From positions 1,327,821 to 1,349,626 of the forward strand of contig MU646321.1 in NCBI GenBank assembly GCA_026770585.1: a stretch of 21,806 nucleotides of DNA, written 5' to 3'. The translations under genes and the position numbers were made by a program. The notes beneath the pieces are model-generated. The model saw nothing but the letters and a program-made list of their open reading frames with translations, ran no database searches and was not told the origin of the DNA. This document shows, piece after piece, positions 7,828 through 14,617 of this stretch. Source of the stretch: Baffinella frigidus. Taxonomy: Eukaryota > Cryptophyceae > Cryptomonadales > Baffinellaceae. Within the stretch, counting starts at the first letter, position 1. Every line of letters begins with the position of its first letter.

Positions 7828-7862
7828 CGGCGAAGATCGATATCATAGAGGCAACCCCCCGA
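7828..7862 (+). pseudogene. GNAT exon 1, copy a (truncated)
   Basis: After an acceptor CCCAGCAG it encodes AKIDIIEATP, matching AEIDIMEATP of the intact copy at 8194. It then diverges and has no donor. Its acceptor phase equals that of the other copies. Confidence 0.6.
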
Positions 7863-7930
7863 AATCTGAAAACCTAAACCCTTGTTTGGCAACGAGCCCT
7901 AACTCAAAGGGATTTCTCCGTGACCTATTC

Positions 7931-8130
7931 CACAAGTGGATACACCCCAAGAACCTACGGTAGGCCGTCCGTAGGGACATGGGGGTGTTCCTACGGATAT
8001 CCTAAATGATTTTTATCCTAACTGGAACCTCTCGGCAGAGGCGGAGATTGATGTTATGGAGGCGACGCCTTACATAGTGTTGTTCCTACGGACGGCCTAC
8101 CGTAGGGTCCTAGCGTTTATCCACGTGTGG
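7931..8130. mobile_element. MITE-like inverted repeat enclosing GNAT exon 1 copy b
   Basis: The left arm (7931-7977) reads CACAAGTGGATACACC...CCTACGGTAGGCCGTCCGTAG. The right arm (8081-8130) is its complement, with the inner 25 bases nearly exact. Inside lies the intron-like sequence CCTAACTGGAACCTC plus the start of GNAT exon 1. Either the element captured an exon fragment, or two elements inserted on either side of it. Confidence 0.65.
8039..8073 (+). pseudogene. GNAT exon 1, copy b (cut by the MITE)
   Basis: It encodes AEIDVMEATP after the acceptor CTCGGCAG, then runs into MITE arm sequence (TACATAGTG) and loses the second half and donor. Its upstream 25 bases (CCTAACTGGAACCTCTCGG) are nearly identical to those before copy c, so exon and intron end were duplicated together. 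Confidence 0.65.
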
Positions 8131-8193
8131 GCTGTTCACGAAATCCCATCGAGTTGTTCATGCGGAGATCCTAACTGGAACCTCCCTCGGCAG

Positions 8194-8249
8194 TGGCGGA
8201 GATTGATATTATGGAGGCGACGCCAGCGTTCGGCGACGAGCTCACTCAA
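8194..8249 (+). CDS. GNAT N-acetyltransferase, exon 1 (intact copy c)
   Basis: This is the first recognisable exon of an acetyl-CoA-dependent N-acetyltransferase. The acceptor is CCCTCGGCAG (8184-8193) and the donor GTAACT (8250). After two bases completing a codon it reads AEIDIMEATPAFGDELTQ, the first beta strand and start of helix 1 typical of the GNAT fold (pattern: I-R-A-T-P then an acidic stretch before L-V-N). It ends in phase 0 and joins exon 2 to give ELTQ|VVNWAYRG. The two leading bases are TG, so an upstream exon ending in A would create a start codon at this junction; alternatively the internal Met is used. Three other copies (a, b, d) are truncated or lack a donor. Together with exons 2-8 it encodes about 178 residues, the usual size for a single-domain GNAT. 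Substrate unknown. Confidence 0.85.
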
Positions 8250-8274
8250 GTAACTCCCCCCCCCGCCCTCCGTT

Positions 8275-8400
8275 CATTCAATTGGTTGATTTAATCTATC
8301 GATTTGATTAATTCATAACGAATTGATTTGGTTATAATTTAATTTGTTGATTTGATCGATAATTTGAATAATTGGTTGATTAACAATTTGATTTATGGAT
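8275..8400. repeat. A/T-rich TTGATTTAAT patch
   Basis: TTGATTTGATTAATT-type degenerate repeats, unlike the G/C-rich surroundings, within GNAT intron 1. Confidence 0.6.
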
Positions 8401-8434
8401 TGGATCAAGGCAGTCGGCTATTTAGTTTGTCTAG

Positions 8435-8496
8435 TGCCGGAGATTGACTCCATGGAGGCGACACCCGCGGTTGGCGACTTGAGTGAGCTCACTCAA
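8435..8496 (+). pseudogene. GNAT exon 1, copy d (donor lost)
   Basis: It encodes PEIDSMEATPAVGDLSELTQ, with a two-codon insertion relative to copy c. The exon end CTCACTCAA is followed by CTAACC where copy c has GTAACT, so the donor is destroyed by a G-to-C change. The flanking AAGGCAGTCGGCTATTTAG (8408) recurs at 8752 without the exon. Confidence 0.65.
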
Positions 8497-8601
8497 CTAA
8501 CCTCCCGCCGTCCGGTGCGAAAAATTAATTTTCCTTTTAATTGATTGATTTTTTACATTAAGTGCATCTATAATTTCGAATCGCTCTGCATCACAGGATT
8601 T

Positions 8602-8628
8602 GGTCTCGTCAAATAATTTGACGAGACC
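8602..8628. repeat. Perfect 13-bp inverted repeat
   Basis: GGTCTCGTCAAAT, one base, then its exact complement. Near a copy of the CAGAGCTAGAA terminus (8702-8714), so possibly the core of a decayed MITE. Confidence 0.8.
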
Positions 8629-8857
8629 GGAAGTCAATTCCCCGGGGGGGTGGTGCAAATCTGTCGACGTTTGGAGTGAAAACGATCAGTCAATCCGAGT
8701 CAGGCAGAGCTAGAATTCAATTAATTCATTTGATCAATTGTGTCGACGAAGGCAGTCGTCTGGTTAATTTGCCTAGTGCACTGACGTTTGTATCGCTATT
8801 TTATTCAACTTATTCAGGAACTTTTGTACCACTGAAGAGAACACGACTGTATCCTAG

Positions 8858-8956
8858 AGTAGGGTAGGGTTGGTTGGTAGGGTAGGGTAGGGCAGGGTAG
8901 GGTCGGTCCTGGGTAGGGTAGGGTGGGGTAGGGTAGGGTAGGATTGGGTAGGGTAA
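8858..8956. repeat. GGGTA tandem repeat
   Basis: A five-base repeat TAGGG with a few GGTTGG/GGTCGG interruptions in GNAT intron 1. Unlike most blocks in this gene it is G-rich on the sense strand. Confidence 0.9.
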
Positions 8957-9011
8957 TGAAGAGTTACAATCAGTCAATTGCTTCTGAGTCTGGGCTCGTT
9001 CTGTGGGTTTT

Positions 9012-9145
9012 GGGGTGTGGGGTCTAAACCCTAAACCCCAGACCGTAAACTCTAAACCCTAAACCCTTAACCCTAAACCCTAAACCCTAAACCCCAAACC
9101 CTAAACCCCAAACACCAAGCCCTAAATCCTAAACCCTAAACTCAG
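9012..9145 (+). repeat. CCCTAAA telomere-like block ending in the exon 2 acceptor
   Basis: About 15 units of CCCTAAA/CCCCAAA; the last reads CCCTAAACTCAG and is the acceptor of exon 2. A short head-to-head junction (GGGGTCTAAACCC) marks its left end. Confidence 0.9.
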
Positions 9146-12970: not shown

Positions 12971-13436
12971 GTGCTCGCCCACCCCACACGGTGCCGAGGG
13001 TTTCATTTTAAAAGTACTCTCGTTGAATTGCACTTATTTTAGACCTTTCCAGGTCGCGGTACGCCCAGATGCTGAGTGCTGTGAAACATCCGTAGTCCAC
13101 TTTGGACTTAACCTCACGGGGGTACTGGTTCGGTGCCCTAATATCTTAGAGCGCTTTTAATTAGGGGTTGTAATCAGTGGAGGCAAGGTCGCCTGGATCA
13201 AGGCTTTGCCCCCCGGCAAAGCCCGCGTGCTCGCGTTCGCCGCACGCAGCACAAATGTCCTCGTTTGTACTGGGCGTGACCGCTCGGGCCTGGTAGCAAA
13301 TACATACATCAAAAATCTAAAAGATCGAAATCAGCACACGAGACGCGTCCTTCCTGGGCACTCGTGTCGCGTCATCATTTGTACCGGGCGTGTCCTTCAT
13401 CGTACTGAGCACACGTGTCACGTCCCGCTCGCGCAG

Positions 13437-13480
13437 GGTTCTGGACGTGTGGGAGGACCTCCTTGCGTGGTGCCTGGGAG
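13437..13480 (+). pseudogene. GNAT exon 7, copy a
   Basis: After GCGCAG and one extra G it reads VLDVWEDLLAWC, then diverges (LGGPPKS). The extra base puts it out of frame with exon 6. The following 130 bases (CAAACCGAGGATGGGGCG...GGCCAGAGTCC) are duplicated at 13715-13795 before the intact exon 7, so the whole block was tandemly copied. Confidence 0.65.
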
Positions 13481-13576
13481 GCCCTCCGAAGTCGATCAAA
13501 CCGAGGATGGGGCGCGAGCCATTTCCTTCGGCCAGAGTCCTGAATTCGAAGTCTGGGAGGAGAAAATGGCTCACTA

Positions 13577-13696
13577 TACGGGGGTACCTCGCTCACAAGA
13601 AAACGCACACCCCCGAGGACTACCATATGGCCCTAGGCATAGGCCTACTGTAGGGTCCTAGGGGGAGGGGCTTTGTTTTGAGCGAGGTGCCCCTGG
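13577..13696. mobile_element. TACAGGGGTACCTCGCTC MITE, copy 1
   Basis: About 120 bases. The ends read TACGGGGGTACCTCGCTCAC and GAGCGAGGTGCCCCTGG, with a palindromic middle built on CCTAGG and AGGCC. First of five copies (13577, 16426, 17218, 17510, 17730), here inside GNAT intron 6 between the two exon 7 copies. Confidence 0.8.
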
Positions 13697-13840
13697 AAAG
13701 ACTCGATTTGATCAATCAAACCGAGGATTGAGCGTGAGTCATTTCCTTCGGCCAGAGGGGGCCAGAGTCCCGAATTCGAGGCATGGGAGGAGGAAATAGC
13801 GCGCGAGAAAGGCTCGATTTGATGGGCTTGGATTGCGCAG

Positions 13841-13887
13841 GTTCTGGACGTGCGGGAGGACCTGATCGCGTGGTACGTCAAGCGCGG
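13841..13887 (+). CDS. GNAT N-acetyltransferase, exon 7 (copy b, intact)
   Basis: A 47-base exon, acceptor GATTGCGCAG, donor GTGCGT, phase 0 to phase 2. It encodes VLDVREDLIAWYVKR plus two bases that make Gly with exon 8. It matches the GNAT motif B helix, where V-R-ELI-WYE-RGY is the usual pattern. The Tyr in WY is the position often acting as general acid in this fold; that is family knowledge, not shown here. Spliced to exon 8 it reads KRG|YVGTGEK. Confidence 0.88.
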
Positions 13888-14165
13888 GTGCGTCCTCCCT
13901 CCTTTTGGTGCTTTGCTGCTTTGTATTACACTCACATCGAAGACCATGCCCACCTCACTCTTGAGGGGATGGGAACAATCTACGGATGAGCTCCCCGATC
14001 CTCTGTATAAAGTGTCAAAAGTTAACATCTTAGACGAACGTCACTTGAGACTCAAAAGTTGACGGTTTAGACTAAACGTCAGTTTAGACTCACAATTTGA
14101 CTAAACTAACTCTATCAACTTTGGGCACGCTAAACTAATGTCAACTTTGGCGTTGTTCGGCAGAG

Positions 14166-14288
14166 CAGCCACGATTCGTGAGGTTCAAACTCCCCTGTAT
14201 GGCCTCCGCTCTAAATGTACGTGTGTGGTGAAGACACACCCCACGTACTTGCCATACAGGTTAGGAGGGGGAGCTTGAATCGTGGCTG
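14166..14288. mobile_element. MITE-like inverted repeat in GNAT intron 7
   Basis: Ends CAGCCACGATTC and GAATCGTGGCTG. Inner arms ACTCCCCTGTATGGC and GCCATACAGGTTAGGAGG; the centre GTACGTGTGTGG/CCCCACGTAC also pairs. Confidence 0.8.
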
Positions 14289-14290
14289 TA

Positions 14291-14390
14291 TCCCTTAAGT
14301 GGCGGACGGGTGGATATTCGCCCTAACTCGCCCTAGGCAGGTCCTAGGGCCCTACCGTAGGGCGTATGAGCCTACTCGCCACTTAGGGGA
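14291..14390. mobile_element. CCCTTAAGTGGC MITE, copy 1
   Basis: 100 bases with ends TCCCTTAAGTGGCGG and CGCCACTTAGGGGA and an inner palindrome CCTAGGGCCCTACCGTAGGG. It abuts the previous element by two bases. Confidence 0.85.
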
Positions 14391-14395
14391 TAAGA

Positions 14396-14438
14396 CGTCC
14401 TTCGGGAATTCCATCTTCTGCCCGGTCCCGACGTACCG
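14396..14438 (-). pseudogene. Inverted copy of the start of GNAT exon 8
   Basis: CGTCCTTCGGGAATTCCATC and TTCT are an exact 24-base complement of 14535-14558 in exon 8; the match continues with mismatches to the exon's first bases (ACGTAC). It is the only exon copy here found in reverse orientation, and the arm spacing would let the pre-mRNA fold exon 8 and its acceptor into a hairpin. Confidence 0.75.
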
Positions 14439-14517
14439 GGTGCATCTTACGGGGAACTCCCCACAAAATTAAAACCAGAATTGTATCTGAAATTTCCACG
14501 TGTGGCCTCTCTGGCAG

Positions 14518-14617
14518 GTACGTGGGCACCGGCGAGAAGATGGAATTCCCGAAGGACGCCAACGTTGGCAAGCCCAAGCGGGAGCTTCAGTTTGAGAAGT
14601 ACGAACGCGCCCTCTGA
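14518..14617 (+). CDS. GNAT N-acetyltransferase, exon 8 (C-terminus)
   Basis: A 100-base last exon: acceptor TCTCTGGCAG, one base completing a Gly codon, then YVGTGEKMEFPKDANVGKPK followed by RELQFEKYERAL and TGA at 14615-14617. The pattern GY-xTGE-x-PFP...G-PK-x-L-F is the standard C-terminal end of small GNAT acetyltransferases (beta strands 6 and 7). Total spliced length from exon 1 is about 178 residues, normal for the family. The neighbouring downstream gene is convergent (stop at 15670). A degenerate second copy lies at 14694. Confidence 0.9.

Follow-up and report, generated by a model that had tools for sequence, protein, structure and literature searches.

Why should the introns of an intact gene hold repeated pieces of its own exons? 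The question is raised by a stretch of 21,806 nucleotides from the cryptophyte Baffinella frigidus (GenBank assembly GCA_026770585.1, contig MU646321.1, positions 1,327,821 to 1,349,626 of the forward strand), which is referred to here in its full length as the window and which is nuclear DNA of this organism. An earlier note on this DNA had described a GNAT acetyltransferase gene of eight exons, most of them accompanied by diverged partial copies, here termed shards. In this work, domain scans, protein and repeat searches, alignments and simulations were combined to infer the origin of the shards. The reading that we favour, with some reserve, is that they are pseudo-exons in the introns of an ordinary gene, left behind by short duplications or insertions that repeatedly crossed exon edges.

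The gene itself is nuclear, encodes a GNAT protein and is spliced in the ordinary way. The deposited protein T484DRAFT_1765686 (P0006; 340 residues), recovered by a profile search, agrees with the locus exon by exon, and among the matches listed, which extend to residue 198 at most, its pieces are identical to the window at or near 100%. The corrected gene occupies 3919-14617 on the plus strand and comprises 13 exons with 969 joined bases (322 codons and the stop); each of the 12 introns starts with GT and ends in CAG or TAG. Exon 1 (3919..3965), the signal/transit region, is identical to P0006; exons 2 (4294..4374), 3 (5753..5840), 5 (7579..7704) and 6 (8194..8249) are supported by matches to P0006 and by the gene model, and exons 7 (9146..9202), 8 (10188..10250), 9 (10442..10483), 10 (11461..11550), 11 (12544..12627), 12 (13841..13887) and 13 (14518..14617, with the stop) by the gene model. 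Exon 4 (6404..6491; ELVMKGSKLPPGISKTQYMAKARNARAMA) is kept in the homologues P0001-P0003. The eight exons described previously are, in order, exons 6 to 13. Thus, the single intact GNAT gene proposed in the earlier note is present, whereas its eight-exon extent was too short by five upstream exons; the exon starts it named (8194, 9146, 10188, 10442, 11461, 12544, 13841 and 14518) are all acceptors in the frame that gives the GNAT protein, and for the exon at 12544 the end had to be corrected to 12627. The search of the joined exons that it had proposed gave the GNAT domain above the cut-offs (PF00583, 43.7 bits, cut-off 20.7; PF13508, 42.5 bits, cut-off 27) and a homologue across the whole GNAT part, the 252-residue predicted protein P0001, which is 75% identical over all 178 query residues. 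The product is probably plastid-targeted: its N-terminus is signal-peptide-like and is followed by ASAF, which we take to recall cryptophyte plastid targeting. P0001 originates from metagenome contigs of up to 78 kb; no relative of it was confirmed on viral contigs, and Rfam and tRNA scans of the window gave no matches.

Aligned extra copies, 20 in total, accompany eight of the 13 exons (3, 4, 6, 8, 10, 11, 12 and 13). When the eight exons of the earlier note were compared with the window by BLAST, 12 matches other than self had E < 1e-3, one of them inverted, and chance is thereby excluded. All copies lie on the plus strand except where stated, and all were delimited by alignment. Exon 3 has a 5' shard with AG kept (5510..5561, 42/52 identical) and a 3' shard that ends one base before the exon end and lacks GT (5944..5977); exon 4 has a 5' shard (6270..6318) separated from the exon by a 70-nt repeat (6318-6387). 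For the exons of the earlier note, the repeated presence of diverged partial copies, either 5' parts with the acceptor or 3' parts with the donor, is borne out by the alignments. Exon 6 has three further copies, namely two 5' shards (7824..7858 and 8015..8069, the latter including 26 nt of intron) and a whole copy in which the donor GT is changed to CT (8433..8509). Two 5' shards of exon 8 (9980..10002 and 10105..10127) are each followed by a CCCTAAA-like array. The three further copies of exon 10 are a 5' shard (11206..11259) and two 3' shards with GT kept (11683..11762 and 11897..11980), and the four of exon 11 are a short 5' shard with only 8 exon bases (12226..12246), a 5' shard followed by the palindromic element 12388-12520 (12313..12387), and two 3' shards with GT kept (12763..12809 and 12919..12983). 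Exon 12 has one 5' shard, with one base inserted after AG (13431..13471). Exon 13 has one direct 3' shard (14747..14795) and one inverted 5' shard without AG (14396..14437, minus strand, 42 bases), together with two short copies of its 3' end and the untranslated region that had not been counted previously (15202..15234 and 15428..15460). The repeat 7395-7440/7544-7589, which spans approximately 10 bases of exon 5, was excluded from the shard counts. As had also been claimed, the copies differ in their substitutions; together with the lack of N in the window, this speaks against a simple assembly duplication, and it is no substitute for raw reads.

The position of the copies follows a rule. 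Across the window, 31 copies were compared with 14 intact exons (eight exons and 20 copies in the GNAT gene, six exons and 11 copies in minus-strand genes). The copy stretches were picked from BLAST and repeat matches and additionally by eye, and the 5' or 3' labels were assigned beforehand; for the minus-strand exons G1, V and L the limits have no independent support, and neither does the choice of the used member in the pairs G1 and L. All 14 5' parts begin at exon base 1 and sit upstream of the intact exon, with AG immediately before the exon start in 13 and one base between in the exon 12 copy. All 15 3' parts sit downstream of the intact exon, and 11 of them extend to its last base; GT comes next in seven of these 11; of the others, three derive from the terminal exon, where no donor exists, and the fourth is without GT. 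The remaining two copies are the whole copy of exon 6 and the inverted copy of exon 13. Accordingly, 29 of the 31 copies combine the direct orientation, the overlap polarity and the one intact exon that are characteristic of tandem duplication across exon edges. Most shards carry just one of the two splice sites. No aligned shard continues into the next exon, and most begin after AG or end before GT, in agreement with the previous statement that a processed pseudogene is not involved.

Contrary to the impression that this arrangement is peculiar to the GNAT gene, it is present in several unrelated genes of Baffinella. In the window, the PDZ exon of a neighbouring gene (19999..20086, minus strand), identified by domain scan and alignment, has aligned 5' shards at 20191-20266 and 20510-20565 and 3' shards at 19861-19930, 19682-19729 and 19515-19547, all on the minus strand; joined to the next exon, it gives a PDZ domain of 44.3 bits (cut-off 23.2). 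Elsewhere in the genome, 20 ten-kb stretches were sampled blindly, of which 13 consist wholly of N and one nearly so; the six usable stretches (~44 kb) contain 114 direct-repeat pairs (25-150 nt long, 30-2000 nt apart). One of them carries the proteasome gene PSMD3, four joined exons of which match the solved structure of 26S proteasome subunit 3 (5vfp_V) without gaps (E 2.5e-33). Upstream of its exon at 2824 lie eight copies, of which seven begin at the acceptor; its exon at 3751 has three downstream copies ending with GT, and its exon at 4791 has one upstream copy, so that the position rule is obeyed by 12 of 12 copies in these eye-chosen stretches, although one alignment extends over the entire exon and is poor at its beginning. 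For chaperonin PF00118, nine of the ten exon matches found genome-wide were tested (L033 was left out), and copies were detected beside four: L035, L037, L042 and, weakly, L041 (E 0.005). No copies were found beside L034 and L040, and only matches to telomere-like or G-rich arrays beside L036, L038 and L039, with an additional short inverted match inside the exon for L038.

A further regularity concerns the point at which the similarity stops. For 21 pairs, hand-picked from 43 copies in the window and in PSMD3, the mean identity is 0.90 in the exon part and 0.37 in the next 30 intron bases, and the intron flank exceeds shuffled sequence in seven of the 21. For the ten pairs with an exon identity of at least 0.93, the flank drops to 0.31 and exceeds shuffled sequence in two; thus, in eight of ten young copies the similarity reaches no further than the splice site, whereas the opposite end of the shard falls anywhere within the exon. 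By manual count, two exon 11 shards share 45 of 46 exon bases and only 51 of 78 columns of the adjoining intron. The chaperonin exon L037 is a counterexample, in which the exon end and ~45 nt of intron are repeated directly adjacent (83% identical over 53 nt), that is, a tandem duplication in which the intron was duplicated along with the exon end.

The arrangement had been considered foreign to ordinary tandem duplication. However, short duplications overlapping an exon edge predict precisely that 5' parts lie upstream and 3' parts downstream, with one exon intact. In the model that we favour, many small duplications or insertions (roughly 20-90 nt) would have overlapped an exon edge: an event at the acceptor would leave the acceptor and the exon start upstream of the complete exon, and an event at the donor would leave the exon end and the donor downstream of it. 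Since events leaving no complete exon would be lost by selection, the observed polarity would be forced. Because most shards lack one splice site, exon definition should skip them and they should drift. Rapid intron turnover via telomere-like minisatellites and palindromic elements would cause the flanks to diverge soon, and local gene conversion with the intact exon may re-homogenise the exon part only, which would produce the sharp stop at the splice site. From the alignments, we infer that the sharp edges reflect such exon-limited homogenisation of older duplications with decayed flanks. The shards most probably do no harm and remain from small duplications that recurred locally. Tandem duplication of pieces that span a whole intron was rejected as it would place exon-start shards before exon-end shards, and exon-end shards come first in the introns after exons 3, 10 and 11, the three that hold both shard kinds. 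Tandem exon duplication and mutually exclusive exons likewise give repeated exon copies in neighbouring introns, but here nearly all copies are partial with one splice site missing, and the sole whole copy in the GNAT gene has a CT donor instead of the two splice sites per copy of mutually exclusive exons.

Several observations weigh against the favoured model. One PSMD3 copy begins at exon base 5, the upstream piece at L042 begins inside the exon, and five of the nine chaperonin exons lack copies if telomere-like and other G-rich arrays are disregarded. A frame-keeping donor/acceptor seam across two copies was found in 4 of 26 tested pairs (at exon 4, at exon 10 with two shards, and at exon 11), and in those pairs either copy part may be the unused one. 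In the GNAT gene, silent differences between shards and exons exceed replacements (60.3 vs 38.7; 17 pairs), which neutral relics do not predict. The control for repeats abutting inserted elements, described below, is weak when arrays are left unmasked (220/3000). Finally, duplication with random edges would not by itself be expected to stop at the splice site, as the similarity mostly does even between copies that are almost identical.

A possible, though unlikely, alternative is that a process in Baffinella copies or rewrites DNA in register with exon-sized units. It would place in the adjacent introns pieces that are fixed at a splice site and break off randomly within the exon, and it would keep them matched to that exon, for example through conversion that uses spliced RNA as a template or that is confined by exon homology; whole introns might thus be built from exon edges.

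Somewhat less plausible is the proposal that the shards are long target-site duplications made by intron-forming mobile elements (introner-like and palindromic) inserted at exon edges, with the new intron sometimes spliced between the copies. Three of 16 palindromic or repeated elements (6318-6387, 12388-12520 and 13574-13700) are directly abutted by direct repeats of 49-89 nt; two of the flanking pairs are exon shards, and the third is purely intronic (13492-13570 and 13712-13800 around 13574-13700). The same abutment was reached in 69 of 3000 random placements with arrays masked, which together with the unmasked value makes this support, shared with the favoured model, moderate. The frame-keeping seams are also expected under the proposal, and at the one at exon 4 the intervening repeat, present at 2618-2695 (minus strand) and 6310-6387 (plus strand), is introner-like in that it opens at a GT that could serve as donor at either position. 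In addition, if P0001 is one uninterrupted frame, as it appears to be, nine Baffinella introns were gained here or lost there. However, just three of the 16 elements are flanked in this way, the other inserts being telomere-like arrays or unclassified; the seams are confined to 4 of 26 pairs, with splicing judged from sequence alone, so that the short target-site duplication plus spliced-out element that defines introners was not found; and the duplications described for introners, in the part of the source available, are only 3-9 bp (PMC9860276).

The inserts in these introns were catalogued as well. Two element families were counted within the window, one with two copies and one with five. 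The latter (13577-13695, 16426-16544, 17218-17336, 17509-17627 and 17729-17847) is mostly palindromic, and we take it to be similar to miniature inverted-repeat transposable elements. A short dispersed repeat with the core AAGTTGACGGGTT or near variants occurs in both orientations (1101-1195, 4397-4478, 5126-5217, 5573-5653, 7248-7334 and 7446-7505). Degenerate CCCTAAA-like arrays fill introns, mainly with C in the sense strand and often immediately before acceptors; these telomere-like arrays lie at 139-463, 7760-7822, 9024-9141, 9731-10180, 10262-10439, 11411-11456, 15759-15995, 18501-18608 and 20554-20726. The C-rich heptads are mostly sense-oriented, with ratios of 59:7 in the GNAT gene and 115:23 and 29:0 in minus-strand regions.

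The silent excess is an unexplained signal and the best support for two further readings, both of which we regard as improbable. For all 27 pairs, 93.3 silent and 75.7 replacement differences were counted, a silent fraction of 0.552, whereas simulated neutral shards beside a conserved exon had mean fractions of 0.37-0.46 under five mutation settings; none of 400 runs attained 0.552 under four of these settings, and 3 of 400 did so under the fifth. Restricting the count to one shard per exon gives a fraction of 0.565, which on average 0.5% of simulations attain. Outside the GNAT gene the counts are near the neutral expectation (33:37 in the other genes of the window, 14:18 in PSMD3). The annotation-free codon periodicity of direct repeats was 201 of 406 mismatches in the commonest phase in the window (vs 181.5 +/- 5.1) and only 365 of 730 in the random stretches (vs 350.5 +/- 7.7).

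The first of these readings traces the shards, via unequal exchange, to functional copies that had diverged, be they alleles, copies of hybrid parents or paralogues since lost, with the divergence accumulated under coding constraint before the pieces were cut off. Besides the silent excess, it would account for some shards that carry the P0001 residue instead of that of the exon (E in place of D in exon 10, L in place of I in exon 12). However, the excess is missing from the other genes of the window and from PSMD3, and near-identical copies mostly lack intron similarity. Moreover, 17 of 18 whole-genome protein matches lie at this locus and the remaining one has E 1.75; no second copy is thus seen in the readable assembly, part of which is N, and a paralogue as the donor was rejected within this scope.

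The second, which we consider no more probable, holds that the shards are in use, as alternative or redundant exon parts or as decoy splice sites under selection. The silent excess would fit, as would the AG kept at 14 of 14 5' shards (once with one base between), and in the deposited model shards seem to figure as exons. Its repeated segments ERVSADEAEIGMFSVDPSNQ and GYAKKSLKAKTASMM are readings of the shards 11683-11762 and 12919-12983 as extra exons. It also jumps from KLPP directly to exon 5 and so omits the latter half of exon 4, which is conserved in P0001-P0003; the residues up to KLPP are compatible with both the shard 6270-6318 and exon 4, and the shard is probably the one taken because a GT at that point exists only there. 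However, P0006, without this half of a conserved exon, scores lower on all three GNAT models than the corrected protein (35.7, 35.0 and 28.5 bits vs 41.1, 41.6 and 37.9), and its two extra exons require the acceptors AAG and GAG, unlike the CAG or TAG of the 13-exon model. Functional shards were rejected as the main answer because the silent excess is confined to GNAT among the genes counted and most shards have only one splice site. Other gene models of the Baffinella genome may share the fault of P0006.

An assembly artefact, in which overlapping ends of diverged contigs were set side by side, is very improbable: the published genome is, according to the accessible part of its description, a draft of 10,880 scaffolds (PMC9756366), and contig-end overlap would yield the same polarity, but the window contains no N, the pieces between the copies include specific elements and arrays, and similar copies lie beside exons on other contigs.

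The shards have partial parallels in known systems, here compared as far as the accessible parts of the sources describe them. Intron gain by tandem duplication in potato RdRp (PMC4974935) likewise involved a boundary-spanning piece and left a formerly exonic segment inside an intron; it is one case, whereas here there are many per gene and several genes, with donor-side copies too and with similarity that mostly stops at the splice site. Daphnia neo-introns attributed to staggered double-strand breaks (PMC4202315) also contain direct repeats made by repair, in repeated events, but the repeats shared with exons are 4-12 bp there and ~20-90 nt here, some with elements or telomere-like arrays between. 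Introners (PMC9860276) are alike in their inverted-repeat elements within introns, the duplicated target and splice sites supplied in part by the element; here, the duplications are 49-89 nt where seen and most shards have no splicing seam. What is unusual is how densely the shards lie, how long the duplications are and how sharply the edges mostly follow the exon boundary. In the accessible main text of PMC9860276, Baffinella, cryptophytes and cryptomonads do not occur, nor do words starting with "intron" in the accessible text of PMC9756366, and no published description of exon fragments in Baffinella or cryptophyte introns was found by title or opening abstract in a literature that was partially covered.

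The shard pattern probably arises as a side effect of introns that turn over rapidly, with splicing acting as the filter. The genome of Baffinella measures 534.5 Mb with 41.1% repeats, vs 87.2 Mb in Guillardia theta (according to the accessible part of PMC9756366). Automated gene models in such genomes can take up shards as exons, and protein sets derived from them need care. With near-identical copies that have their edges at splice sites, RNA-templated or exon-limited conversion becomes a testable question, and the polarity of the shards reveals what splicing tolerates. The shards are a readable record of intron expansion, in which every shard marks an event that struck an exon edge; they illustrate how the introns of a bloated genome grow.

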